A stretch of 64,000 bases of DNA from Pirellulales bacterium (lineage in GTDB: Bacteria; Planctomycetota; Planctomycetia; Pirellulales; Lacipirellulaceae): the NCBI GenBank assembly GCA_019636345.1, contig JAHBXQ010000002.1, positions 434,001 through 498,000 of the forward strand, in the 5' to 3' direction. How positions within the stretch are numbered: position 1 is the stretch's first letter; every line of letters starts with the position of its first letter. Positions 18-46,885 of the stretch are shown here, one piece after another. A program made the position numbers and the translations under genes. The notes under the pieces are model-generated. The model was not told the origin of the DNA and made no database searches. It was given only the letters and a program-made list of their open reading frames with translations.

Positions 18-2891
18 ATGCGTGAAAACCATATCGCTTGTCCGGCGTGCTACGCCCCCCTGAAGTTCGTCGGGGAGCGAACGTCACTTGTCTGTCGGCA
101 CTGCGGGCATCAGTTCGAAGTCGCCGCGCCGGCCTCGGCGTCCGACGTTCCGGCGCCCGCTCCGCGCCGACCCCGCCGACCGCCGGTCGAACTCGTCGAC
201 CTGGCAGAAGAATCCCCGTCCGGCGGGATTCAGAACGTCGTCGTCGGAGCGGCGGTGGGCGTCATTGTCGCAGTGCTGGTCGTCGCAGCGGCGATCGCGC
301 TCAAGTCGGACAGTGCCCCGGCCGAGGCCCGCGTCGAGCCCGCGGCGACCGACGTCGAACCTCCGCATGTGGTCGGTTGGCTGAGCAATAAGGTGCCGCT
401 GATCGTCCTGGCCAAGCCTGAGGCCCGGAGTCCCGTAACGCACGAGGCTCCCCCGCCATCGTCCGCCGATTCGTCCGCCGAGCCAGCAACTGTCGCGGCT
501 TCGCCGGAGGAGTCCCCGGGAGTCGTGCCCCCGCTGCGTTCCGGCGCCCTGCCGCCGGTCGTTGCGCAGGTCGAGGAGTCGCCGTCGGGGCCAGCGGCGA
601 CTGCCCCCTCGCTCCCGACGGACCCCGGTCCTCCCTCGACCGATTCGCCCCGACTCGCTTCCTCCCGTCCCTGGCGCTATCACTGGCGGATCGGCGACGT
701 CCACGACTACGAGTTTGAACTCGAGGCCGGCCTCCCGGAAGATCGGCAGGAGATTTCCGGGACCTGGAACCTGCGCGTCGCGGGGGTGCATCGCGAGCCG
801 GAACCGGAACGCCTCTCCGCGCAAGGCACGGCGTTCGTCGTCGCGCCCGACGGGTATCTCGTGACGTGCGAGCACGTGGTGCGAGACGCGGCGCGGGTGA
901 TCGTCCACCTGGGCGATCGGCACTGGCCGGCCGAAGTGCTTGCCGTCGACGCCCTGCAGGACTTGGCCTTGGTGCGTGTCGCGGCCGACGATTTGCCCGT
1001 GCTGGCGATTTCGTCCGCTGAGGACGTCGATCTGGGCGCCGAGGTGCGGGTGATCGGGTTCCCCTTGGCGTCGCTGTTCGAGAGCCGCGGCATCAAGATG
1101 ACGACCGGCACGGTCACCGGCCTCACGGAGACGAACCGGCAGGGGGTGCGATTATTCCAAGTCGACGCGTCGGTCAATCCGGGCAACAGCGGCGGCCCCT
1201 TGCTGAACGACGTCGGCGAGGTCGTCGGGGTCGCCAGCAAGTACCTTGCGGCGGCCACTCTGTCCAACGTCGGGATGGCGGCGCCGGCGGCCGAGGTCCG
1301 GCGGTTCTTGCGCGACGCCGGGCTCGAGATTTCCGCCTCGACCGCCTCGACCAAACTCACCGGCACTGAAATCGCCAAACGGGCCGTCCCCTCGGTGGCG
1401 TACGTCGAGTTGGAACTCGACCCCGAGGTCGCCCGGGTCTACAAGATCGAGTTCCGCGCCGATCACCGCGGAACGACGGTCGCCCCGCGCCGCGCCCCGT
1501 TTCCTGGCTGGCACGACTCGGCGCGGGTCGTGCGCACGCCGACGTTCCGGTCCGAGCCGGGAAGCTTTCACGTCACGAGCGACGGCACGGTCGACGAGTA
1601 CGAAGGGGGATACAGCCTCCCGTACGTACTCGACCCCGCGGCTGCCGTCGTCGTCGAGTCCGTCGCGCATGGCGGCAAGAGCAAATGGCATAGCGTGCGG
1701 GAGTCGACGTTCAGCGTCCCTCGGCCTGGGGCGCGGATCGAGTTTCCCTCGGTCATGCCGCACGGGTTTCCCGCTCCCCGTTCGTTTGCCGGCCGGACTT
1801 CGGGGAGCTTGTTCGGAACGGATGAGCCCGAGGCGGACCTGTACGACGCCCTCGAAACGATCGACTACGAGGTGCAAAGCGAGACGGAGGACGAGGTCGT
1901 GATCGCTCGGCAGTACGAGTTCAAGACGACCGACGGCTCGCCCCCGCTTTACCGCCAGCAAGGGACCGGCACGATCCGCTTCAGCAAGCGACGCGGCGAA
2001 GTCGTCGACGCGGAGCACCAGATCGACCTGTCGGTTCGCGGCGACGACGGCGTCGTGCGCACCGTGCCGGCCAAGCTCGCATACCGGCTGCGCAACCCGA
2101 CGCTCGTCGCGGCCGAGCGCGGGGTTCGGTCCGCGCTCGAGGCGGGACGCCGGCTTCGTGATGCGACGACGGCTCGCCCGCCGCAAGACGAGCAGCCCTC
2201 CGAAACGCCGCTCGACGACCCTCGTCGAATCGACCAGTTGCTTCGCTCGCTCGACCCCCGCCGGGTGGCGCGCGAACAGTCGCAAGTCGTGGACGAGTTC
2301 ATCCTGGAGCATGCCCCTCCGGAATTCGTCGAGCAAGTGCGTCGCGCGACCAGCCCGTCGCATGCCGACGAGTTGCGCGAACTGGGGCGGCTGGCCGTCG
2401 TCCCCGACCGCCAGGATCGGGTCGTCGCCGTGCTGATCGCTCACGCCCGCGCGGGCCGTCCGTTCGACGTCGAACCGGCGATCCAATCGCTCAAGCGCTG
2501 GGCGAGCGACAAACACGTTCCCGACTTGCTGCGACTCTACGAGTTCATGGGCGGCGGAATGAACTGGCCGGAACGCGAGGCGATTCTGGAGATCCTCGTC
2601 GAGCTGAACGCCCCGGCGTCGATCGACGCCCTCGTCGGCCTGCTGGGAGACAAGCAAAACGGTCGGCGCGTCGTCGAGGCGCTCGTGAAGATTGGTCCGC
2701 CGGTCCAGGACGCGGTCGTCAAGGCGCTGAAGAATCCGCACGGGATGGTCCGGGCTGGCGCGGCCGACGTGCTTCGCGAAATGGACGCAAAGGAGGCCCT
2801 TCCCGCCTTGCGCGCCGCCTTGGCCGAGGAGACCAACTGGCAAGTCCAGATCCGTTTCGAGTCGGCAATCCGCCGTCTCGAACGCCAGTAG
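18..2891 (+). CDS. Zinc-ribbon / trypsin-like (HtrA-type) serine protease / HEAT-repeat fusion
   Basis: Predicted membrane-anchored serine protease of about 957 residues. The N-terminus has a CPAC...CRHCG zinc ribbon (residues 7-32). A hydrophobic, Val/Ala-rich membrane segment follows at about 71-95, then a long Pro/Ser-rich linker. The S1C-type protease domain carries a full triad: His286 (CEHVV), Asp315 (QDLAL) and Ser391 in GNSGGPL. A beta-rich middle region of unknown type follows, and the last ~125 residues look like HEAT/Armadillo repeats. No PDZ domain is seen, unlike DegP. The architecture suggests a cytoplasmic zinc ribbon, one membrane pass and an extracytoplasmic protease; the topology is inferred. 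I chose the ATG at 18. An in-frame TTG at 3 or a start left of the window cannot be excluded. Confidence 0.85.
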
Positions 2892-3108
2892 CGCGGCGCC
2901 TCCGCCGGCGGCTCGCCGCAGCCCTGCAAGCGTCGTCCCCCGGTTTGCATCGTCGGGGACGCCTTGGCGATGGCCAACTGCCCCGTTATCTGGCACGATC
3001 GAAGGGATGCCGCCCGCTGCCGGTCGGCGTCCTCCTCGCTTCTCCGTCCTCATCGCACGTGCTATGTCTGCACAGCGAGCCCGAATCCGTCCGGCGCACC
3101 GCCATGCC

Positions 3109-4035
3109 GTGAAGAGTCCGTTCCGGGCCTTTACGCTTGTGGAATTGCTCGTGGTGATTGCGATCATCGGGATTCTCGTCGGCCTGCTGCTGCCGGCGAT
3201 TCAGGCGGCGCGTGCTGCGGCGGTTCGCACCGACTGCGCCAGCAGGCTGCGGCAGTGGGGCCTCGCGATGCTCACCCATCACGACGTCAAGAAACGGTTC
3301 CCCGCCGGCGCCCAATCGAATCCCCGCGGGACCTGGGTGATGCACATGTGGGGCTATGTCGAGCAGGGGCCCCTCGCCGCGGGGACCGACTTGTCCCAGC
3401 ATTTTTTCCTCGCCCCCGCCACGCTCGACAACGGCTACTCGCTCCGCGGGCCGACCGGGCAGCACGTCCCTCTGTACGACTGCCCCGCCGATGGCGAGGG
3501 GAGCGATCAGATCCTCGGCCGGTACCAGCGGCGGCGCGGAAACTACGTGATCAACTGGGGCAACGCCCGTTACGGACAGGTGCTCGAGCCGGCGGGGATC
3601 GCCCCCTTTTCCCACGAATGGGGCAGCCGCAAGACGCCTCGCAAAACGCGGCTGGTCCACGTCACCGACGGCACGTCCGCGACGCTGCTGATGTCCGAAA
3701 CGCTCAAGGCCACGAGCCCGCGCGACAACGACTGGCGCGGCGACGTCCAGAACGACGATGGCGTCTTCCGATTCCACACGCTGCTCTCCCCCAACACCTC
3801 GGCGCCCGACGTCATCGAGTCGGGCTGGTTCGAACGGAACAACGACCCGCTGATGCCCGCGGTCGCCGGGGTCGCCAGCTCCCAGGTCGCCGCCGCCCGC
3901 AGCCGCCACCTCGGCGGGGTCAACGCCTTGCTGTGCGACGGTTCGGTCCGCTTCGTCAGCGACGAGATCTCGCTCGACGTCTGGCAGGCGTTGGGTTCGA
4001 TGAACGGCGCCGAAAACGTGGAGTTCGCCGACTGA
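3109..4035 (+). CDS. DUF1559 type II pseudopilin-like protein
   Basis: Pseudopilin-like secreted protein of the large planctomycete DUF1559 family. It has a class III signal, [20 protein letters not shown], preceded by a short basic leader, so a prepilin peptidase should cut just before the Phe. The middle carries [11 protein letters not shown]. The C-terminus has the family H-x9-DG signature ([12 protein letters not shown]) followed by SVRFV. The GTG at 3109 gives the usual short leader (VKSPFRA). In-frame ATGs at 3007 and 3064 would give atypically long leaders and are less likely, although no strong ribosome site settles it. The next gene overlaps by one base (TGATG), so the two are translationally coupled. 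The exact role of DUF1559 proteins is unknown. Confidence 0.85.
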
Positions 4036-4439
4036 TGCGTTCCCGCTTGCGAGGATTCGCCCTGGCGCTCGCGACGTCGGGATCGTTCTGGGGATGCTCC
4101 GAGCCGACCACGGGCACGGTCTTCGGGACGGTCGCGGTGGGCGGGGCGCCCGTCGAGACGGGGGCGATCACGTTCATCCCCGAGAACCTCAAAGGCCGCA
4201 CGACGGGGGCCGAAATTGCCGACGGCCGCTACCGCACGACGTCGTCGCTGGGGCGGATGCGGGTCGAAATCCGCGTCCCGCGGGTCGTCGGTCAGAAGAA
4301 GCTGTACGACGCCCCCGACAGCCCGATGAAGGCGATCCTCGAGGAAACGATCCCCGCTCGCTACCACGACGAGTCGACCCTGACGATCGAGGTCCTGCCC
4401 GGGAACAACGAGCGCGACTTCGAGTTGGAGTTGAAGTGA
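4035..4439 (+). CDS. Carboxypeptidase regulatory-like lipoprotein
   Basis: Small lipoprotein of 134 residues. The N-terminal signal ends in a lipobox-like GSFWGC, so lipidation at that Cys is likely. The remainder (GTVFGTVAVGGAPVETGAITF onward) resembles the carboxypeptidase regulatory-like or transthyretin-like beta sandwich that commonly follows DUF1559 genes in planctomycetes. The start ATG overlaps the stop of the preceding pseudopilin by one base, which implies an operon and coupled translation. A cell-surface or periplasmic structural role is inferred; no catalytic residues are visible. Confidence 0.75.
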   Translation: MRSRLRGFALALATSGSFWGCSEPTTGTVFGTVAVGGAPVETGAITFIPENLKGRTTGAEIADGRYRTTSSLGRMRVEIRVPRVVGQKKLYDAPDSPMKAILEETIPARYHDESTLTIEVLPGNNERDFELELK

Positions 4440-4461
4440 CGCGCCGCCGGCCCCGTGACGC

Positions 4462-5754
4462 TCACTTACCGCTCGGCCCCTTGGCCAGCACCAGCCGCTG
4501 GTTGCCGCGGAACAACACGCCTCCCGGAACGGGCACGGGCGTGGCCACGACGTGGTCGTCGAGCGCGTTCTCGGCGAGCTGCTCGAACCCCTCGTCGCTG
4601 ATCCGGCCGACGAACACTGTGCCGTCGATTCGCGTGGCGTACAGCAGGTCGCCCGTCACCAGCGGCGACGAATAGAACTTGTGTCGGCTCCGGGGGAGAT
4701 CGGCCTGCCAGAACACCTCGCCGGTCGCGACTGCCAGGCACACGAGCTTTCCTTGGTCCCCCAGCACGTAGGCCCGATCGCCGACGATTGCGGGGGTCGG
4801 CACGTCGGCCCCGATTCCTTCCTTCTGCCAAACTCGGTGGGTCGCCGTCACGTCTCCGCGGCCGTCGAGCTTGACTCCGGCGACGAAGTTGCCGCGGCCG
4901 TAGGGGACGACCGCCACTCCGTCGGCGATCGCGGCCGAAGCGATGACCCGCCACATGCCCTCGTTGTTCGGGTTGAACCCGCCGCAGTCCCAGACGAGCT
5001 CGCCGGTGGCGGCGTCGTGCCCGGTCAGGTGGTCGGCGCCCCAGGTGACGAGGATCGTTCTGTCCCCGCTGCGAATCGCTTGCGGGGTCGTGTACGCCTG
5101 GTCCGACTCGCGGGGGCGTTCGTACTTGCGCGCGGTTTTCCACATTTCGTCCCCGCTGGCAACGTCGAGGGCGACCAGAAACGAGTCCCCTTCCTGCATC
5201 ACCGCGACGACGACTTTGCCGTCGACCAGCACGGGCGAAGTGCCCAAATCCCACCACAGCGTGTTGTCGCCGTAGGTTTGCTGCAGGTTCTTTTCCCATA
5301 GCAGGTTGCCGTCAAGATCAAACGCCGCGAGGTCGCCGCTCTTGAAATAGGCGATCGCCCGCTCGCCGTCGATCGCGGGCGAGGGATTGGCCGGCGAGGC
5401 GTCGCGGTGCTTGGCGGGCGACTCTTGGCCGAGCTTGCGTTCCCACCGCGGCTGGCCGTCGAGGCCGTAACAAACGACCGCGTTCTTGCCGTCGATCGCG
5501 CAAGTCAGCACGATTGCATCGCCCCACACGGCGGGGGTCGAGGCCCCGAGCCCGGGCAGGTCGACCGTCCACGCCAAGCTGTCGGGGGCGCCGAACTCGA
5601 TCGGCCCGACAGCCGTCGCCACGGTCCCGGTGCCGGAGGGACCGCGCCAATTGGGCCAATTGTCGGCGACCGCCGCGCGGCTGGTCGCCAGCGCGTTCAA
5701 GGCGAGCAGGGCGACAACCGATCGCGCTGGCGACCATCCGGCAAACCTAGACAT
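4462..5754 (-). CDS. Secreted PQQ-binding-like beta-propeller protein
   Basis: Protein of 430 residues with a signal peptide (ALLALNALATSRAAVA) and then WPNWRGPSGTG, the typical opening of planctomycete BamB/PQQ-like propellers. Repeats of the type hAhDhxxGxxhW are spaced along the chain (for example ALDVASGDEMW, GHDAATGELVW and CLAVATGEVFW), each marking a propeller blade. No dehydrogenase active-site motif is seen, so a redox enzyme is not supported; binding or scaffolding in the periplasm is the cautious reading. The start ATG at 5754 was chosen because it places the signal peptide at the N-terminus. It converges on the lipoprotein gene at its left. A relative with the same fold lies at 26.1-27.5 kb. 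Confidence 0.85.
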   Translation of the reverse strand: MSRFAGWSPARSVVALLALNALATSRAAVADNWPNWRGPSGTGTVATAVGPIEFGAPDSLAWTVDLPGLGASTPAVWGDAIVLTCAIDGKNAVVCYGLDGQPRWERKLGQESPAKHRDASPANPSPAIDGERAIAYFKSGDLAAFDLDGNLLWEKNLQQTYGDNTLWWDLGTSPVLVDGKVVVAVMQEGDSFLVALDVASGDEMWKTARKYERPRESDQAYTTPQAIRSGDRTILVTWGADHLTGHDAATGELVWDCGGFNPNNEGMWRVIASAAIADGVAVVPYGRGNFVAGVKLDGRGDVTATHRVWQKEGIGADVPTPAIVGDRAYVLGDQGKLVCLAVATGEVFWQADLPRSRHKFYSSPLVTGDLLYATRIDGTVFVGRISDEGFEQLAENALDDHVVATPVPVPGGVLFRGNQRLVLAKGPSGK

Positions 5755-6260
5755 GGCAAGATCTCGCACACTGAGAAACTGAAAAGAGGAATTCACCCGC
5801 AGGCAGCGCGGGCCGTTCGAACGATCCGCGTCATCCTTGACGGCTCGACAACTAAGCAAGCGGATTCGCACCGAAGTTTAGCAAATCCGAAACGCATGCG
5901 TCTCGCAACGGGCGGCCGCGGGGGCAGGGGGGAGGCGCGGTATGGGGGGAAACACTTCGGGCGAGACTTCGAGGGCCCTGTTCGCGCTGCCGACCGGGGC
6001 CGATCGCGCCGCTGGCGCCGGAACGGACCCCGGGAATTTTGAGGATTTTCCGCAAAACGCGCGAAGTTCGCCCAATTTGACGCTGCCGGCGGCCGATGCG
6101 CTGAGTACACTTGCAGGATTCGCGAACCTCCGGCGGCCCCGACAGGGGGGATGCGTCGGGGGCTTTGGCCCGGTTCGCGACCTGCCTGACCTGACTGTCG
6201 ACTCGACCCGCCGGGCGAGTTTTCGTTTCCTAGCGACCTTGTATGTGGGGAATTTGCGCG
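5755..6260. other. Divergent intergenic region, 506 bases
   Basis: No convincing gene. The region separates a leftward propeller gene from a small rightward gene, so it should hold promoters for both, but I could not assign clear -35/-10 boxes. It contains GAGTACACTTGCAG near 6105, closely similar to GAGTATACTTGCAG near 41987, which also lies upstream of a rightward gene. This might be a shared regulatory or promoter motif. Confidence 0.4.
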
Positions 6261-34887: not shown

Positions 34888-34979
34888 CGAGGGACGTTGC
34901 CGCCGGTTGATACAGTTTCCCAGCAGCTTGATTGACACTTGCAGATCCTGACCGCCCCCTTCTCGCCGTCCCTCCCCCT

Positions 34980-36020
34980 ATGTTCTTTTCCCCCCGCATT
35001 CGTTTGAAGCCGCTTGCCCAGTTGTGCCATCGACTGGCGACGGCGACCGCGGCGGGGCTGGAGGACCGGCGAATCTGGCAGAGCGAATCCGAGCGCGGGG
35101 GCTCCGCCCAGCAAGCGCGCGTGGCCGCCGTGGCCGAACGACTGGCCCGCGGGCAGGCGATTCCCGAGGCGCTCGCCGCCGCGGGCGATTATTTCCCGCC
35201 GCTGTTTCGCCAGATGGTCGCCGTGGGGGAAACGAGCGGCAATCTCGACCGCACTTACAAGCAGCTTGCCGAGCACTACGACCGCACGCTTGCCGCTCGC
35301 CGCGAGTTGCTGCAGCGGCTCGCCTGGCCGGCGTTTCAGCTCGGCATGGCCCTGTTCGTCGTGGGGCTGTTGATCTGGATCATGGGAATCCTGCCGGTCA
35401 ACAAGACAAGTTCGGGGACGCAGTTCGACATGCTCGGCCTGGGGCTCGTGGGGAACTCGGGACTGATCGTATATCTGAACATTCTGATGGTCACGGGCAT
35501 CGCGGCGCTCCTGATCCTCGAGTCGGCGCGGCGAGGCATGCTCTGGACCCGCGGCGTGCAGCAATGGGCCCTGCGGCTGCCTGTCATCGGCGGGGCGCTC
35601 AAGACGCTCGCCCTGGCGCGGCTGACCTGGGCGCTGCAGTTGTTGTTCGACACCCCGATGGATCTCCGCAGCGCGCTGCCGTTGGCGCTCGATGCGACGG
35701 GAAACGAGTACTACGCCAAACACGGCTCGGACGTGACCCGTAGCGTTCAGGGCGGAGCGACGCTTCATCAGGCGTTCTCCCGGACCGGCGTCCTGCCCCG
35801 CGATTTGTTGGACGCGATCGCCGTGGGCGAGGAGTCGGGTTCGCTTGTCGAGACGATGCGCCGCCAGTCGCGCGAGTACCAAGAGCGGGCCGCCGCGGCG
35901 CTGGGCCTGCTGGCCCAACTGTTCGGCTACGCGCTGTGGTTGGGCGTGGCCATACTGATCATCGTGCTGATCTTCCGGATCTACTCGCAGTACATGGGCG
36001 TGATCAACAGCGTGATGTAG
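34980..36020 (+). CDS. Type II secretion/pilus inner-membrane platform protein (GspF-like)
   Basis: 346-residue inner-membrane protein with two T2SSF domains. The first (about 30-120) includes FPPLFRQMVAVGETSGNLDRT. A transmembrane helix (LGMALFVVGLLIWIMGIL) and a second membrane pair (GLIVYLNILMVTGIAALLIL) follow. The second domain has LPRDLLDAIAVGEESGSLVETM and ends in the helix LWLGVAILIIVLIFRIY. The repeated hGExSGxL signature identifies the family. Isolated inside the salvage island with no GspE or GspG beside it; the secretin is 8 kb away. It would support assembly of DUF1559-type pseudopili. Confidence 0.85.
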   Translation: MFFSPRIRLKPLAQLCHRLATATAAGLEDRRIWQSESERGGSAQQARVAAVAERLARGQAIPEALAAAGDYFPPLFRQMVAVGETSGNLDRTYKQLAEHYDRTLAARRELLQRLAWPAFQLGMALFVVGLLIWIMGILPVNKTSSGTQFDMLGLGLVGNSGLIVYLNILMVTGIAALLILESARRGMLWTRGVQQWALRLPVIGGALKTLALARLTWALQLLFDTPMDLRSALPLALDATGNEYYAKHGSDVTRSVQGGATLHQAFSRTGVLPRDLLDAIAVGEESGSLVETMRRQSREYQERAAAALGLLAQLFGYALWLGVAILIIVLIFRIYSQYMGVINSVM

Positions 36021-37082: not shown

Positions 37083-37469
37083 CTACTCGCCGGTGAACAC
37101 GAACTGATCGGGGAGCAGCTTGTCGAGCGTCGTGGTACGGACTCGGGCGACGTCGTCGGCGTCGGCGAGGATCACCTCCATCGCGGGGCCGAATTCGGCG
37201 AGGACCTGCCGGCAGGCCCCGCAGGGAGAGGGCGCCCCGGGGGCGACGACGGCCACCCGCTTGATCTGCGTCGCCCCGGCGGCGACTGCGGAGCAGATCG
37301 CTCCGCGCTCGGCGCAGATCGTCAGGCCGTACGAAGCGTTCTCGACATTGCAGCCGACGAACACGCGTCCGTCGGCCGTTTCGACCGCGGCGCCGACGTG
37401 AAAGTGCGAGTACGGGGCGTGGGCGTGAGCGCCCGCGGCGCGGGCGGCGTCGATCAGTTCCTGCGACAC
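37083..37469 (-). CDS. cdd: Cytidine deaminase
   Basis: Deaminates cytidine and deoxycytidine to uridine and deoxyuridine. 128 residues, the usual length of the tetrameric Cdd. Motifs: APYSHFHVGAA, CNVENASYGLTICAERGAI (zinc Cys and catalytic Glu in CAE) and SPCGACRQVLAEFG (two zinc Cys). The GTG start (VSQELIDAAR) was chosen because GAGGAGG lies seven bases upstream at 37477-37483; the upstream ATG at 37505 has no ribosome site and would add a non-homologous leader. It is the last gene of the leftward deoC-pnp-pnp-deoA-cdd series and supplies uridine to DeoA. Confidence 0.95.
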   Translation of the reverse strand: MSQELIDAARAAGAHAHAPYSHFHVGAAVETADGRVFVGCNVENASYGLTICAERGAICSAVAAGATQIKRVAVVAPGAPSPCGACRQVLAEFGPAMEVILADADDVARVRTTTLDKLLPDQFVFTGE

Positions 37470-37476
37470 GGCGGAG

Positions 37477-37483
37477 CCTCCTC
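37477..37483 (-). promoter_or_regulatory. Strong ribosome-binding site deciding the cdd start
   Basis: GAGGAGG on the minus strand, seven bases before the GTG at 37469. It selects GTG over the in-frame ATG 36 bases upstream. Confidence 0.75.
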
Positions 37484-37587
37484 GTAAGACGACGACATCA
37501 GTCAAGCCGCAATCAATCGAACCTGCTCTCTCTCGAGCCGGACGGCCATGCCGTTCCCGACACGAGAGACTCGATCTTATCGAAGTC

Positions 37588-38868
37588 CTAGCCGATTCGC
37601 TCCAGGATCAGCGGAAGCGGCGCTACGGGGGCGTCGCTCAGCGTGATCGCTGCGGCGAGCATCGCGGCGACGGACTCGCGCTGGTGATCGTGGCAGAACA
37701 ACTTCGCCAGCGGTTGCCCGGCGTCGACGCGGTCGCCGATTCGCACGAGCATCTCGAACCCGGTGGAAAAGTCGAGCGTCTCGCCCTGAACCTGCCTGCC
37801 TCCCTTCATCGCAATCACGGCCCGGCCGAGCTGTTCGGCGTTCGTCGCAGCGACGTAGCCGGCGTGCGGGGCGAGCACGTCTTCCGCCGGGGCGATTGGC
37901 CGCGGGGCGTCGAGATTTCCCCCCTGGGCCGCGACCATCTCGGCGAACTTCTCCCGCGCGGCGCCGGAGTCGATCGTCGCCTGCAGTCGGGCGAGCGCCG
38001 CAGCGCGGTCGGCCGTCCCGGTCGAGACCAGCAGGTCGGCGCCCAGTTCGAGCGTCGCGGTCATCAAATCGGCCGGCCCCCGGCCCTCGAGCGCCGCAAC
38101 GGACTCGTCGACCTCGACCGCGTTGCCCGCCATCCGGCCCAGGGGCTGGTTCATGTCGGTGACGATCGCCGTCGTGGCTACGCCCATGCGCTGGCCGGTG
38201 TTGACCAGCGACTGGGCGAGTTCTCGGGCCAGCTCCGGGGTCTTCATGAACGCCCCGCTGCCGCACTTCACGTCGAGCACCAGGGCGGCGAGCCCCTCGG
38301 CGAGCTTTTTGCTCATGATGCTCGCGGTGATCAGCGGGATCGACGGCACGGCGCCGGTCACGTCGCGCAGGGCGTACAGTTTGCGATCCGCGGGGACCAG
38401 ATCCACGGTGGCGCCGCTGATGACGCAACCGACCTCGCGCACCACGCGGCGCATCTCGTCCATCGACAGATCCGTACGGAATCCGGGGATCGCCTCGAGC
38501 TTGTCGAGCGTGCCGCCCGTGGCGCCCAGGCCGCGGCCGGAGATCATCGGCACGCCCAGTCCGCAGCAAGCGAGCATCGGGGCGAGCGGCAGCGACACTT
38601 TGTCGCCGATCCCGCCGGTCGAATGTTTGTCGACCATGGGGGCGTCGCCGTCGGTCCACTCGAATCGGGCGCCGGAAGCGAGCATGTGATCGGTCAGGCT
38701 GGCGATTTCGTCGGTCGTCATCCCCCGCAGAAAGACGGCCATCGCGAACGCCGCCATCTGGTAGTCGGGAACGTCCCCCCGCGCAAACCCGGCGACGATC
38801 GCCGCGATCTCCTCGGACGAAAGTTCGTGCCCATCGCGTTTCTTCTCGATGATCCAAACCGGGTTCAT
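37588..38868 (-). CDS. deoA: Thymidine / pyrimidine-nucleoside phosphorylase
   Basis: Phosphorolysis of thymidine, deoxyuridine or uridine to base plus (deoxy)ribose 1-phosphate. 426 residues. Signatures: VDKHSTGGIGDKVSLPLAP (residues 79-97, phosphate and nucleoside site), SGRGLGATGGTLDKLEAIPG, and LDVKCGSGAFMKT. The C-terminal domain has STGFEMLVRIGDRVDAGQPLA. The length and the dual-use motif fit either thymidine phosphorylase or the broader pyrimidine-nucleoside phosphorylase (Pdp) of Gram-positives; substrate range cannot be read off safely. About 120 bases upstream of cdd on the same strand. Confidence 0.9.
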   Translation of the reverse strand: MNPVWIIEKKRDGHELSSEEIAAIVAGFARGDVPDYQMAAFAMAVFLRGMTTDEIASLTDHMLASGARFEWTDGDAPMVDKHSTGGIGDKVSLPLAPMLACCGLGVPMISGRGLGATGGTLDKLEAIPGFRTDLSMDEMRRVVREVGCVISGATVDLVPADRKLYALRDVTGAVPSIPLITASIMSKKLAEGLAALVLDVKCGSGAFMKTPELARELAQSLVNTGQRMGVATTAIVTDMNQPLGRMAGNAVEVDESVAALEGRGPADLMTATLELGADLLVSTGTADRAAALARLQATIDSGAAREKFAEMVAAQGGNLDAPRPIAPAEDVLAPHAGYVAATNAEQLGRAVIAMKGGRQVQGETLDFSTGFEMLVRIGDRVDAGQPLAKLFCHDHQRESVAAMLAAAITLSDAPVAPLPLILERIG

Positions 38869-39015: not shown

Positions 39016-39837
39016 TCAGAGCGATCGAACCACGCCCCGGACGATCGCGGCGAGCTTGTCGGCGGCGGTCGCCGCCGCGTTCAACACGTCGTGGGCGGTC
39101 GTTTCGCCCAGGGCGTCGGGGGAGCCGACGTTGGTGATCGTCGAGATCCCCAGCACGCGCATCCCGGCGTGGATGGCGGCGACCACCTCGGGAACGGTCG
39201 ACATGCCCACCGCGTCGCCGCCGATCGTGCGGCACATGCGGTACTCGCTCCGCGTCTCGTATGTGGGGCCCAGCATGCCGACGTACACGCCGCGGCGGAG
39301 CGGGAACTTGTGTTCGAGAGCCACTGTCGCCGCAACTTCCTGCAACAGCGGATCGTACGGCGCACACATGTCGGGGAACCGCGGCCCGAGGGCGTCGTCG
39401 TTCACTCCCACCAACGGGTTGGCGAACATCAAGTTGATTTGGTCGTCGATCAGCATCACGTCTCCGACGCGAAACTGCGGATTGAGCCCCCCCGCCGCAT
39501 TGCTGACCACCAGCGCCTCGGCGCCGAGGGCCTTCATCAGCCGCACCGGCAGCGACGCCTGCTCGGCCGACCACCCTTCGTACAGGTGGAATCGCCCCTG
39601 GAATGCGACGACCGGCTTCCCTGCGAGCATGCCGCAGACCAGCCGGCCGGCGTGTCCCACGGCGGTCGATTTGGGGAAGTGGGGAATGTCGCCGTAGGCG
39701 ATCGTCGCTGCCGCGTCGATCTCGCTCGCGAGCCCCCCCAGCCCGCTTCCCAGGATGATCCCGGCCACGGGGGTCGCGTCCCAGTGCCGACGGACGGCCG
39801 AGGCCGATTCAGCGATCGTTGCAGCTAAGCGGATCAT
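39016..39837 (-). CDS. Purine nucleoside phosphorylase, Asn236 paralogue
   Basis: 273-residue trimeric-type PNP. Motifs: GSGLGGLASEI (phosphate), VVSNAAGGLNP (residues 111-120, canonical base pocket), QGRFHLYEG (His84), VGMSTVPEVVAAIHAGM (Glu217), and TITNVGSP with Asn236. In mammalian PNP the equivalent Asn (N243) favours the 6-oxopurines inosine and guanosine, so that is the predicted specificity. The ATG overlaps the stop of the upstream paralogue by four bases (ATGA), so the two are co-translated. Compare the upstream copy, which carries Asp at the same position. Confidence 0.9.
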   Translation of the reverse strand: MIRLAATIAESASAVRRHWDATPVAGIILGSGLGGLASEIDAAATIAYGDIPHFPKSTAVGHAGRLVCGMLAGKPVVAFQGRFHLYEGWSAEQASLPVRLMKALGAEALVVSNAAGGLNPQFRVGDVMLIDDQINLMFANPLVGVNDDALGPRFPDMCAPYDPLLQEVAATVALEHKFPLRRGVYVGMLGPTYETRSEYRMCRTIGGDAVGMSTVPEVVAAIHAGMRVLGISTITNVGSPDALGETTAHDVLNAAATAADKLAAIVRGVVRSL

Positions 39838-40667
39838 GACCGGGCGGCCTCGTACTCGAGGATCCCCAACACCAAGGCGCGCAGCTTCGGCTCGGCGCCG
39901 TTGGCCACGGCGATAATCTCGGCGACGTCGGCCGGCTTGAGGGCGTCGGGCAGACACATGTCGGTGATCACCGACAAGCCGAAGATCCGCATGCCGCTGT
40001 GGACGGCGACGATCGCCTCGGGGACGGTCGACATGCCGACGACATCGGCGCCGATCGCCCGCAGGAAGCGGTACTCGGCTCGGGTCTCCAGGTTCGGTCC
40101 GGTGACGGCGACCGTCACGCCGCGGTGGGCGACGAAGTCCTCGCGCCGCGCGATCGCCAATCCCGCCTCGATCAACTCGGGGGCGTAGGGGACGCTCATG
40201 TCGGGGAACCGCGGACCGAGCCGATCGTCGTTGATCCCCACCAGCGGGTTGTCCCCCATCAGGTTGATGTGATCGTCGATGATCATCACGTCGCCGGCGC
40301 GGTACTGCGGATTCATCCCTCCCACCGCCTGCGACACGACCAGCAGGTTTGCCCCCAGCGCTTTGAACACGCGCACCGGCAAGGTGATCTGGCTCAGGGG
40401 GTAACCTTCGTACTGGTGAAAACGCCCTTCCATCGCCACGACCGGGCGCCCCCCCAGCGTGCCGCACACGAGCCGGCCGCGGTGGCTGGTCGCCGTCGAG
40501 CGCGGGAAGTGGGGAATATCGCCGTAGTCGATCGTGACGGCGTTCTGCACCTCGCTGGCGAGATTGCCCAGCCCGGTTCCCAGGATCACCCCGGCCAAGG
40601 GCTTGTGGGGCCAGAGTTCGCGAATCTTGGCGGTCGCGGCGGCGATTTGGTCGTACAACTCGAGCAT
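39834..40667 (-). CDS. Purine nucleoside phosphorylase, Asp236 paralogue
   Basis: 277-residue PNP collinear with the neighbour over at least the first 240 residues (position 236 matches without gaps). Shared motifs: GTGLGNLASEV, EGRFHQYEG, VGMSTVPEAIVAVHSGM. Two pocket differences stand out: VVSQAVGGMNP replaces the canonical SNAAGGLNP, and VITDMCLP puts Asp at 236 where PNP has Asn. Methylthioadenosine phosphorylases, which use adenine nucleosides, also have Asp there. I infer activity on 6-aminopurine nucleosides or methylthioadenosine, or a broad range. Start ATG at 40667 chosen over an upstream ATG at 40754 to match the neighbour's N-terminus. Confidence 0.85.
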   Translation of the reverse strand: MLELYDQIAAATAKIRELWPHKPLAGVILGTGLGNLASEVQNAVTIDYGDIPHFPRSTATSHRGRLVCGTLGGRPVVAMEGRFHQYEGYPLSQITLPVRVFKALGANLLVVSQAVGGMNPQYRAGDVMIIDDHINLMGDNPLVGINDDRLGPRFPDMSVPYAPELIEAGLAIARREDFVAHRGVTVAVTGPNLETRAEYRFLRAIGADVVGMSTVPEAIVAVHSGMRIFGLSVITDMCLPDALKPADVAEIIAVANGAEPKLRALVLGILEYEAARS

Positions 40668-40796: not shown

Positions 40797-41519
40797 TCAG
40801 TAACTGCTCTGCGAGGTCGCCCCCGCGTCGCCGGTGCGCTCGGCGTCGGCGATCACTTGGGTGGCGCTGGTGCCCAATCGCGTGGCGCCCAGGGCGACGA
40901 ACCGCTGGGCGTCGGCCAGCGAGCGAATCCCCCCCGAGGCCTTCACCTGGACCCGCTCGCTGCAGTGGGCCCGCATCAGCGCGATGTCGTGCTCGGTGGC
41001 GCCGGTGGCGTACATCGCGCCCCCTTCGCCCTTGATCATTCCGAACCCGGTCGAAGTCTTCACGAACGCGGCGCCGGCCCGCTCGCTCGCCTCGCACAGC
41101 TTGATCTTGAGATCGTCGGTCGGCAGCAACCCGGTTTCGAAGATCACCTTGGTGATCGCCCCGCCGGCGCGAGCCGCTTCGACCACGGCGCGAATGTCCG
41201 CCTCGACGAACGTCCAATCGCCAGCCAGTGCCCGGCCGAGGTTGACGACCATGTCGACTTCCTTGGCGCCTTCGGCGACGGCGATCTCCGTCTCGCGCAC
41301 CTTGGCGCCGGTGCTCGTGCCGCCGTGGGGAAATCCGATGACCGTGCTGGGGACGACCCGCGACCCGGCGAGCAACTCGGCGGCCAGCGGCGCCATCGAC
41401 GGCTTCACGCAGACGCTCGCCGCGCCGACCTCGACGCACATGGCGCAGGCGGCCCGGAGATCGTCGTCGGTCTGGGTCGGATGCAGGACGGCATGGTCGA
41501 TCAGGGCGACGACGCTCAT
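40797..41519 (-). CDS. deoC: Deoxyribose-phosphate aldolase
   Basis: Splits 2-deoxyribose 5-phosphate into acetaldehyde and glyceraldehyde 3-phosphate, feeding nucleoside sugar into glycolysis. 240 residues, class I aldolase TIM barrel. EVDMVVNLG carries Asp89; AAFVKTSTGFG carries the Schiff-base Lys154; VQVKASGGIRS carries the second Lys193. First gene of the leftward run; the gap to the next gene is 129 bases. A phosphopentomutase (deoB), needed to turn deoxyribose 1-phosphate into the DeoC substrate, was not found in the window. Confidence 0.95.
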   Translation of the reverse strand: MSVVALIDHAVLHPTQTDDDLRAACAMCVEVGAASVCVKPSMAPLAAELLAGSRVVPSTVIGFPHGGTSTGAKVRETEIAVAEGAKEVDMVVNLGRALAGDWTFVEADIRAVVEAARAGGAITKVIFETGLLPTDDLKIKLCEASERAGAAFVKTSTGFGMIKGEGGAMYATGATEHDIALMRAHCSERVQVKASGGIRSLADAQRFVALGATRLGTSATQVIADAERTGDAGATSQSSY

Positions 41520-43795: not shown

Positions 43796-46700
43796 TCACC
43801 GCGGCGGCGGCATTTGTTCCTGGGGGACGACGTACTCGTCCGGCTGCGGGGCCAGTTCGGGCGCGACGAACCCGTCGGTCGCCCCGGGCATTCCCGGGTA
43901 GACGGCCTGCGCCTCGGCGGCGCCCAGCGGGTCGAGCCGGCTCCGCAATCCCGCGGGGCCGTGCATGTCGACCACGTCCGACAGGCACCAACTCATCCGA
44001 GCCGACTCGGTCTGTTTGAGCATTTCCGATTCGTACCGCGAGCGGACAATGTGCGGAGTGAGGATGATCAACAGCTCGGTCCGGCGGGTGGTGCTGAGGT
44101 CGTACCGGAACAGGTTGCCCAACAGCGGAATGTCGGCCAGCAGCGGTACGCGGCGGTGGATCGCCTCGTCGCGCTTGGTGAGCAGCCCGCTGAGGACCAC
44201 GGTCTGGCCGCTCACGGCGCTGACCACGGTTTGCGCTTGCGTCGCGTTGACTCGGGGAACGTTGATCGGATCGCCGTTTTGGGCGAACCCCACCGGCACG
44301 CCGTCGGCAATTCGGCCCAGTTCGCTCTTTTCGGCGAAGACCTCCATGACCACGAGCCCGTCGGGGCTGATGCGCGGCCGCACTTCCAATCGCAGGCCGA
44401 CCGGTTCGCGCGTGATTTGGTTGATTGGAAACGAACCGACCACCGGCACGGTTTGCCCGGTGACGAAGGGGACGATCTCGCCGACGAACGCCCGGCCGAT
44501 CTGGTTGTTGAGGGCCATGATCTGCGGGCGGCTGAGCACCTCAAGCCGCCGCGACTCCTGCAGAGCCCGCAACAGCATGCTCACGCTTTCGCTGCTGGCC
44601 GAGAGGACCAAGCCGCCGAAGCCGAGGTCCGGATTGAGCCGATTGACGGCGAAGTTGGAGAGCCCCTGGGCCGCGACGATGCCCGACGTGGCGAGCGAGC
44701 GATCGCTTCCCGAGTTGGGGATTCCCTGCTGGGGATTGCCGAAGTTGTACCCGGGATTCAGCGACGCGTTTTGGATCGATTGCTGCGTGACGGAGGTCAC
44801 GGCCCCGCCGGCGCTGGTCGTTTGCGTCGTCGTGGTGATGTTCGAGATGTCCCCCAGCAGGCTGCGGTCGAACAGGGCCGAGTCCTGCAACCCCAACTCG
44901 ACGCCGAATTCGTCGGCGTCCCCCAACCGAACCTCTCCGATGAGGACCTGGATGAGGACCATCGGCGCCTGTTCGTCGAGTTGTTCGATGATCCGCGCGA
45001 TCTCGTCGTAGTACCGCGGCGTGGCCGACACGATGAGGCTGTTCGAACCGATGTCGGGGACGACGACCACCTCGCGCTCAAGCTGCGTGAAGGGGCTCAC
45101 GACGCCGGGGCCGGTCTCGCGGACGTCCCGTTCCTGCTGCAACCACTGCTGCAGGGAGAGGGCGACGTCCTCGGCGCTGGCGTTCTTGAGTTTGTAGACC
45201 TGATTGCGGCGCTGGCGAGCTTCCTCGCTGTCGAGCCGCAGGAGGATCGTCTCGACCACGAGCAGTTCTTCCTGGCTCCCCGCGGCGATGATGCTGTTGG
45301 TCCGTTCGTCGACGCTGAGGCGCAGTTGGAAGACCCCGGCCTGGGCGTTGTCCCCCTGATCGACGGCCCCGAACAGCGATTCCAGCGTGTCGACCAACGC
45401 GACTGCGTCGCCGTTCTCGACCGGAAACACCTTGAGCACGGCCGAGGCCGCCGAGACTTGATCAAGCTCGCGGATCAACCGGCGCGCCTCTTCCATCGCC
45501 CGCGGAGCGGCCCGCACCAGGACCGAGTTCGACCGGGCGTCGGCAAAGACCAAGGCTTTGACCCCCAACGTGGCCGTCTCGTCGTCGTCAAGCGCCAGCA
45601 GATCCTCGAGCACGTTCTCAATGTCCTCGGCCGAGGCCCGTTCGAGGCGGAAGATCTCGAACTGCGACCCGGCTTCGGTTTGCTGCTGGTCGAGTTCGCG
45701 GATGACTTCCATCACCCGATCGAACGTCAGCGGCGCGGCGGCGACGAACACCGCGTTGGGATTGCTCAGCGGCAGCACCAGCGGCGTGCCGTAGTACGAA
45801 GCCAGCGTCGGCCCCGTGGTCGGCGGACCGAACGCTCGATTCAGCAGTGCAGCCATGGCGACGCCATCGGCGTTCTTGAGGGAGACGACGGCCACCTTGG
45901 GGGGCTCGACCTGCGACATGGCCTCGATCTGGCGGATCACTTCGCGCACCTTCTCGGTGTCGCGGGGATTGCCGCGGATGATGAAGATGTCGGTCCCCTC
46001 GATGTTTTCGACCTGCACGGGACCCAACAGCGCCCCGGCCAAGTTGGTGAGCGCCGCCGCGCCCTCGGCGTCGGCCGACGGGGCCTGCCCCGCGCCGCCG
46101 GTCGTGTTCTGAGCCAGCAGCATCGCGACTGATTGGCGCACCTGAGGCGCTGCGCGGGGGCCGACGGCCACGTACGCGGGATTCGCCTGCGGGTCGTTCG
46201 GCGCGTCGAGCGCCTCGACGATTCGACGCCACGCGGCAAGTTGCTCGGGCCGGCCGTCGAGCCGCACCGTTCCGGTCTGGCGATCCACCGCCGCCATGAC
46301 CGCCGGTTCGCCGGGCAGTTCGATTGCGAACCGCAGCCACTGGCTCCGCGGTTCCGAGAGCAGCGGGAGCGGCCGATTGAACGTCGTCTGGAGCCGGGCG
46401 TGGAAGTCCTCGGCAGAGATTTGCGTGAGGCGCAACGTTGCGCTTTGAGCCGCGGACTTCGCCTCGGGAGCGGCAGACGCCGGAGCCGCCGCTGGCGCCC
46501 CGTTGGCCGGGGGGGGACTGGCTGGTTGCCGGGCGTCAAGCTGGGCGACGCGCACCGGAGGATTTGCAGGAGCGGGGGCGGCCTGGGCGAGTTCGCGCAG
46601 CGCCCCCGCCACCGCTGCATGGAGTCGCTCGTCTCCCCGCACGACCAGTCGGTTATTGCGCGCGTCGAGGGTCGCTTGGACGGGTCGGCCCCCTGTGGCC

Positions 46701-46885
46701 GCACGGATTCGCGCCTCGAGGGCCGCAGGATCGACTTCGCCCAAGTAGTACGCCCGCGCATCCGGCTGCGGGGCTTGAGGTTCTTCCGCACGAGCGGCCG
46801 TGACCGCGCCCGCGACGAGCACGGCGATCACGAGGCCCCGGCGGCGCTGGGCCCCGTAGGTTCGGGTTCGTGGCTGGCAAACCAT
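43796..46885 (-). CDS. gspD: Type II secretion system secretin (GspD-like)
   Basis: Outer-membrane channel of the type II secretion or type IV pilus-like system, 1029 residues, longer than GspD (~650). Signal-type N-terminus, then a long planctomycete-specific region (~30-330). N-domains at about 331-600 carry VVSLKNADGVAMAALLNRAF, RLERASAEDIENVLEDLL and KLKNASAEDVALSLQQWL. The secretin domain is at ~640-935, ending in RVPLLADIPLLGNLFRYD. A ~95-residue tail follows. Likely partners are DUF1559 pseudopilins and the GspF-like protein at 35 kb; no GspE is encoded here. Downstream lipoprotein probably in the same operon. Confidence 0.9.
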   Translation of the reverse strand: MVCQPRTRTYGAQRRRGLVIAVLVAGAVTAARAEEPQAPQPDARAYYLGEVDPAALEARIRAATGGRPVQATLDARNNRLVVRGDERLHAAVAGALRELAQAAPAPANPPVRVAQLDARQPASPPPANGAPAAAPASAAPEAKSAAQSATLRLTQISAEDFHARLQTTFNRPLPLLSEPRSQWLRFAIELPGEPAVMAAVDRQTGTVRLDGRPEQLAAWRRIVEALDAPNDPQANPAYVAVGPRAAPQVRQSVAMLLAQNTTGGAGQAPSADAEGAAALTNLAGALLGPVQVENIEGTDIFIIRGNPRDTEKVREVIRQIEAMSQVEPPKVAVVSLKNADGVAMAALLNRAFGPPTTGPTLASYYGTPLVLPLSNPNAVFVAAAPLTFDRVMEVIRELDQQQTEAGSQFEIFRLERASAEDIENVLEDLLALDDDETATLGVKALVFADARSNSVLVRAAPRAMEEARRLIRELDQVSAASAVLKVFPVENGDAVALVDTLESLFGAVDQGDNAQAGVFQLRLSVDERTNSIIAAGSQEELLVVETILLRLDSEEARQRRNQVYKLKNASAEDVALSLQQWLQQERDVRETGPGVVSPFTQLEREVVVVPDIGSNSLIVSATPRYYDEIARIIEQLDEQAPMVLIQVLIGEVRLGDADEFGVELGLQDSALFDRSLLGDISNITTTTQTTSAGGAVTSVTQQSIQNASLNPGYNFGNPQQGIPNSGSDRSLATSGIVAAQGLSNFAVNRLNPDLGFGGLVLSASSESVSMLLRALQESRRLEVLSRPQIMALNNQIGRAFVGEIVPFVTGQTVPVVGSFPINQITREPVGLRLEVRPRISPDGLVVMEVFAEKSELGRIADGVPVGFAQNGDPINVPRVNATQAQTVVSAVSGQTVVLSGLLTKRDEAIHRRVPLLADIPLLGNLFRYDLSTTRRTELLIILTPHIVRSRYESEMLKQTESARMSWCLSDVVDMHGPAGLRSRLDPLGAAEAQAVYPGMPGATDGFVAPELAPQPDEYVVPQEQMPPPR

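Follow-up and report, generated by a model that had tools for sequence, protein, structure and literature searches.

Adjacent Asp-type and Asn-type purine nucleoside phosphorylases in a planctomycete nucleoside-breakdown cluster: a putative adenine-nucleoside enzyme beside a putative 6-oxopurine enzyme

The window, a stretch of 64,000 nucleotides from the genome of a Pirellulales bacterium, carries a minus-strand cluster of five genes in the order deoC-A-B-deoA-cdd, where A and B are two adjacent purine nucleoside phosphorylase (PNP) genes. Its features are as follows.

40797..41519, minus strand: deoC, deoxyribose-phosphate aldolase, upstream of A (TIGR00126, 197.8 bits, above the cut-off)
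39834..40667, minus strand: PNP copy A, Asp type (277 aa, intact open reading frame)
39834..39837, minus strand: ATGA overlap of the stop of A with the start of B (read from the sequence)
39016..39837, minus strand: PNP copy B, Asn type (273 aa, intact open reading frame)
37588..38868, minus strand: deoA-type pyrimidine/thymidine phosphorylase, downstream of B (NF004490 and TIGR02644, above the cut-offs)
37083..37505, minus strand: cdd, cytidine deaminase (TIGR01354 and NF004064, above the cut-offs)

An earlier sequence-only reading of this DNA had described the ATGA overlap of two collinear PNP genes and a difference at residue 236, Asp in A (VITDMCLP) and Asn in B (TITNVGSP). Both were borne out: the overlap lies at 39834-39837 between two intact reading frames, and the differing residue bears the same number in both proteins, which share 56% identity. 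Type II secretion-like parts, namely a T2SSF protein and a secretin, were identified on either side of the nucleoside cluster (window positions 34932-36020, plus strand, and 43796-46885, minus strand).

Both proteins score above the cut-offs of the trimeric PNP models NF006054 (A 343.8 and B 356.5 bits; cut-off 218) and TIGR01697 (285 and 311.5 bits; cut-off 197.1), and of the inosine/guanosine-specific PNP I model TIGR01700 (301.6 bits, narrowly, and 320.3 bits; cut-off 293.35). Asn at human position 243 is a feature of inosine/guanosine-specific PNP I; it is present in B, whereas A has Asp. A shows the combination typical of methylthioadenosine phosphorylase (MTAP), in which Asp occupies the base site and the 5' site lacks His (Asp236, Val248). 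Descent of A from MTAP was rejected, with 75.4 bits on TIGR01694 against a cut-off of 274.85, and by sequence A is a PNP. Its AlphaFold2 model (mean pLDDT 95.3) shows the trimeric PNP fold, the nearest solved structure being 4m1e (Z 43.0), with human and bovine PNP at Z about 38-40.

Residues at the positions that we take to be human Arg84, His86, Tyr88, Glu201, Met219 and Ser220 are retained in both copies. A possesses Asp236, Leu193, Glu194, Val248 and Gln113/Val115, and B possesses Asn236, Tyr193, a Glu matching Glu194 of A, and Ala248 followed by His249. Human residue numbers were transferred by motif and from an excerpt of PMC2799393, such that positions 236, 193 and 194 of A equate to Asn243, Phe200 and Glu201; we infer that position 248 equates to His257. 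Two differences had been missed by the sequence-only reading, one at position 193, which is Leu in A and Tyr in B, and one at position 248, where A has Val and classic PNPs carry His. The motif that it had singled out, SQAVGGMNP in A replacing the SNAAGGLNP seen in B, is indeed present, but its importance did not hold: Gln113 occurs in 4 of 245 aligned rows, these being four genomes of A's own family, and Val115 in 21 of 189 Asp+Leu rows, so that with both residues uncommon the motif is not the key feature of A. Glu194 is retained in 206 of 207 Asp rows, the sole exception being an MTAP-type outgroup row. Position 248 is hydrophobic in 186 of the 189 Asp+Leu rows and His in all 15 Asp+Phe rows of the same related-loci scan, as it is in six of seven Asn-type outgroup rows. 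A non-His 5' site fails to discriminate A from B, as only 5 of 30 planctomycete Asn copies have His at 248. Asp and Asn have interchanged only five times on the tree described below, which gives four to five independent pairs for the linkage of Leu193 with Asp236.

The distribution of these types was assessed among 108 genomes from the class of the source genome, 107 of which encode a PNP (P0001) homologue. Asp+Leu+Glu was identified in 104 of the 106 genomes for which at least one PNP sequence was read; the other two, G325 and G369, are the only class genomes with Asn-type copies alone among the sequences read. G351 has no P0001 match, and G371, with a weak match, falls outside the 106. In many class genomes the single P0001 match is of the Asp type. 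A is therefore the usual type in its class and is not the odd copy, and its residues place it in an existing large subfamily defined by Asp, Leu193 and a hydrophobic residue at 248. The Asp+Leu+Glu signature was also seen in Bacteroidota, Gemmatimonadota, Balneolota, Ignavibacteriota, Chlorobiota, Hydrogenedentota, Sumerlaeota and others, in a scan limited to the 80 loci most similar to an Asp-type sequence, which thus shows the breadth of the signature and not its frequency. Frequent neighbours of Asp-type PNP genes in other phyla were YggS (36), DivIVA (22), DksA-like (13) and LspA (9) among 114 Asp+Leu-only loci, each group being named from one member (L147 1587-2642, L125 1782-2645, L163 7454-8476 and L123 6852-7577, respectively).

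A maximum-likelihood tree was built from 112 rows with 17 trait positions removed; at a correlation of 0.961 its bootstrap stopped short of full convergence. It retains 26 of the 80 loci of the related-loci scan and 9 of 10 plasmid outgroup loci. Fourteen planctomycete loci were thinned from it (L044, L045, L048, L049, L051, L052, L053, L077, L082, L087, L088, L101, L104 and L110), and the alignment omits one fragment shorter than 200 aa, which is the second copy of L053. Nineteen planctomycete Asn rows, B included, form a supported clade (99/91) nested in a planctomycete clade of 41 rows (99/93). The remaining 22 rows of the latter comprise 21 of the Asp type and one Asn row (L057, at an open fork), and a wider planctomycete Asp background surrounds the whole. 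With the Asn clade of B lying inside an Asp background, a return from Asp is its simplest origin. The Asn of B thus looks derived from an Asp ancestor, Asp being the inherited state, which reverses the polarity implied by the sequence-only reading. Acquisition of B from the classic Asn-type PNPs was rejected, given its place among the 19 Asn rows within the 41-row clade. Forcing 30 Asn rows into one clade (Asn rows L159_1664 and L207 excluded) costs 66 log units, a modest rejection (p-AU 0.037). The two rows annotated as MTAP family, which were used as outgroup, join each other on the tree.

The shared tandem duplication that had been proposed for A and B fits this tree, but as an old event near the base of the order, and the exact sister relation of the two copies (support 82/92) is not settled. 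Within the class sample, two adjacent PNP genes were identified in all four genomes of A's own family and in all 13 of family f2, a count that includes G379, whose second copy is cut by a contig end. This recurrence, together with that of Asp+Leu+Glu in the class, speaks against a chance pattern. Asp and Asn types lie on separate contigs in G337, G344 and G375. Three genomes of family f3 have one match each, of the Asp type, and the one PNP match of G325 is of the Asn type. Outside the clade of B, four Asn copies from family f98 join the classic PNPs; at these family f98 loci (L079, L081, L083 and L085) a classic-looking Asn-type PNP has a deoA-type match nearby.

Among planctomycete loci, a deoC, deoA or cdd match occurs in 9 of the 29 that carry an Asn-type copy and in none of the 50 without one; both types are present in three of these nine, and the other six are among the 14 loci with an Asn-type copy alone. 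These counts refer to stretches of 4 to 11 kb, exclude the window, and score L053 as Asp-only despite its second-copy fragment.

The assembly of the window's genome is 95.9% complete. Three members of PF01048 were identified in it: A, B and an AMP-nucleosidase-like protein (NF005500; L003 1366-2139), which might be an alternative source of adenine. No match was found in this genome for adenosine deaminase (PF00962), MTAP (E<=1e-40), MTA nucleosidase (E<=1e-15) or Apt, and AhcY, mtnA and adenine deaminase are present. AhcY produces adenosine, and the substrate of mtnA derives from MTA. The gene content fits an adenine-nucleoside role of A. Adenosine deaminase was found in 12 of the 108 class genomes. 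Apt scores above its cut-off in 99 and adenine deaminase in 8: deaminase alone occurs in seven genomes (among them all four of A's own family), both in one, neither in two and Apt alone in 98 (Fisher 1e-8, kinship ignored). This near-exclusion suggests production of adenine. The Asn-type PNP gene of G344 adjoins a gene assigned by Pfam to adenine deaminase (L057 4331-6962).

In the reading that we favour, at a probability of about 0.57, A phosphorolyses adenine nucleosides in an MTAP-like pocket and B is a 6-oxopurine PNP, both acting in a cluster for nucleoside breakdown; its substrates, hydrogen bonds and pathway flow are deduced from the sequences, residues, tree, gene content and neighbourhoods observed here. 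The five-gene cluster would degrade nucleosides. A, a PNP of the trimeric fold, would accept adenosine and 2'-deoxyadenosine. With Val in place of the His that contacts the 5'-OH, it would probably take 5'-deoxy and 5'-methylthio adenosines as well. Asp236 of A is predicted to bond the 6-amino group and N7, and B, with Asn236, would cleave inosine, guanosine and their deoxy forms. Released adenine would pass to adenine deaminase, as no Apt was found in the family of the source genome. The division between 6-amino and 6-oxo nucleosides foreseen by the sequence-only reading gains indirect support from the Asp of MTAP, the human double mutant and Thermus enzyme discussed below, and the gene content; its strict exclusivity does not, as Glu194 is kept. 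Counting against the favoured reading are the following: Glu194 is retained in A, whereas the human double mutant and 6tk9 are without it; the inosine/guanosine-specific model TIGR01700 accepts A; the Bacteroides fragilis PNP and the single Asp-type matches discussed below point to possible use of 6-oxo nucleosides; the AMP-nucleosidase-like protein may be another source of adenine; and L207, a row that bears the MTAP-family annotation, shows Asn and Arg at sites 236 and 248.

Acceptance of both A and B by this NCBIfam model agrees with a further explanation, that both are 6-oxopurine PNPs differing in sugar preference, affinity or regulation, with Asp236 tolerated and the base unswitched. We regard this as very improbable: human PNP mutant data (from an excerpt of PMC2799393) and the Asp of solved MTAPs argue otherwise, and AhcY and adenine deaminase are present, yet the genome has no further PF01048 enzyme except the AMP-nucleosidase-like protein.

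Retention of Glu194 makes dual specificity conceivable, and the Asp type, as the only PNP match in many class genomes, may also serve 6-oxo nucleosides. Both points speak for A being a broad-range PNP that uses 6-amino and 6-oxo nucleosides alike, to which B adds 6-oxo capacity for deoxynucleoside breakdown. Human PNP with Asn243Asp alone reportedly uses adenosine and inosine to a comparable extent, which counts in the same direction. So does 8swt, a Bacteroides fragilis PNP that, from the entry title, was crystallised with the 6-oxo analogue Immucillin H; judging from other Bacteroidales rows, this enzyme is of the Asp+Phe+His type. A broad-range A by itself leaves unexplained both the Asn of B in a separate supported clade and the tendency of Asn copies to lie near deo genes, and we consider it unlikely.

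An excerpt each of PMC8102628 and PMC10986504 describes MtnN or MtnP as disposing of 5'-deoxyadenosine and MTA. In the class sample, mtnA was identified in 90 of 108 genomes, MTAP in two at E<=1e-40 (none above the curated cut-off) and MTA nucleosidase in one at E<=1e-15. This imbalance would suit A being primarily an MTAP analogue, with MTA and 5'-deoxyadenosine as main substrates and adenosine as a secondary one. The same may be said of G325, which has no Asp-type copy and encodes an MTAP-like gene (L211) that matches A at positions 236 (Asp), 193 (Leu) and 248 (Val), of the prevalence of a hydrophobic residue at 248 in Asp+Leu rows, and of the Asp+Leu type in arsenosugar clusters. A in the window, however, adjoins deo genes and not mtnA; G369 (Asn type only), G351 (no P0001 match) and G371 (PNP not read) keep mtnA without an MTAP or MTA nucleosidase match; G372 carries an MTAP-like gene in addition to the Asp type; and in 18 class genomes an Asp-type copy occurs without mtnA, all of which leaves a primarily MTAP-like role of A doubtful. 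An amidohydrolase of the window's genome (L261) scores below every NCBIfam cut-off shown, aminofutalosine deaminase ranking first, so a route by MTA deaminase is also a possibility.

An excerpt of PMC12159101 names ArsS as the radical SAM enzyme that serves arsenosugar synthesis, in which arsenic is adenosylated. Of 159 loci, 8 have ArsS in the stretch examined, and each of these 8 carries an Asp+Leu+Ile PNP. In L145, from Winogradskyella, three open reading frames (a TIGR04282 arsenosugar glycosyltransferase, the PNP and an arsenosugar ArsM) touch end to end or share a few bases, their starts being provisional. This locus (1470-5783) is closely packed, with a TIGR04169 peroxidase-like protein, ArsS (named by likeness to L073 2348-3457), a rhodanese, the TIGR04282 glycosyltransferase, the Asp-type PNP and ArsM. 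The logical substrate of its PNP would be an adenine nucleoside in which an arsenic group replaces the 5'-OH and from which adenine is lost. The arsenosugar neighbours offer an independent hint of a wider role on 5'-substituted adenosines. No paper linking arsenosugar and PNP was found in a search that needed three terms, from which papers with two of them could escape.

A broader scenario, which we put forward tentatively, is that, in a class where MTAP and MTA nucleosidase are almost lacking, a PNP lineage with an MTAP-like site clears adenosine, MTA and 5'-deoxyadenosine, which arise as side products of S-adenosylmethionine chemistry, that one duplicate returned to Asn to handle 6-oxopurines, and that the subfamily was recruited to arsenosugar clusters, there to strip adenine from an arsenic-bearing 5'-deoxyadenosine. 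If true, a PNP subfamily found across many phyla passes NCBI models as inosine/guanosine-specific wrongly, and would be a candidate for the missing MTA/5'-deoxyadenosine enzyme in this class of Planctomycetota. The tandem pair would be a natural experiment on one residue, with an Asp enzyme and a relative apparently back to Asn in the same cluster.

Among known enzymes, PNP I of Planctomyces limnophilus (4m1e; name per entry title) has the fold and Asp/Leu signature of A (TDLCLPD and GPNLET) at 58% identity, and PNP I of Spirosoma linguale (4lna) has them (TDLCFPD and GPQLET) at 52-53%. The sequence of G283, near-identical to 4m1e by eye, is that genome's one PNP match and has no tandem partner, unlike A and B. 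Literature searches, outside which most subscription papers lie, found no paper naming 4M1E together with the enzyme, none naming 6TK9, and none joining Planctomycetes, purine nucleoside phosphorylase and adenosine.

MTAP resembles A in its Asp at the base site, which the sequence-only reading had claimed and which was confirmed in solved members (VTDYD, VTDFD). In two of three MTAP-type rows a hydrophobic residue replaces the PNP His, like Val248 of A, sites 236/248 being Asp/Val in L211 (which also has Leu193), Asp/Leu in L204 and Asn/Arg in L207. The human PNP double mutant Glu201Gln:Asn243Asp, said to retain Phe200 and His257, has Asp at the site of A, but it is engineered and lacks Glu201. 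It cleaves adenosine prodrugs and is weak on guanosine, according to an excerpt of PMC2799393.

The Thermus thermophilus PNP of 6tk9 is a 271-aa chain with a trimeric-family sequence and Asp at the base site; it has Ala at human position 201, in contrast to Glu194 in A. From subunit size, it is probably TthPNP II, for which a partial text of PMC8073115 gives a subunit of ~30 kDa and a mass of 179 kDa, taken as a hexamer, as against 153 kDa and a smaller subunit for PNP I. TthPNP II acts only on 6-aminopurines, as stated in an excerpt of PMC11430614.
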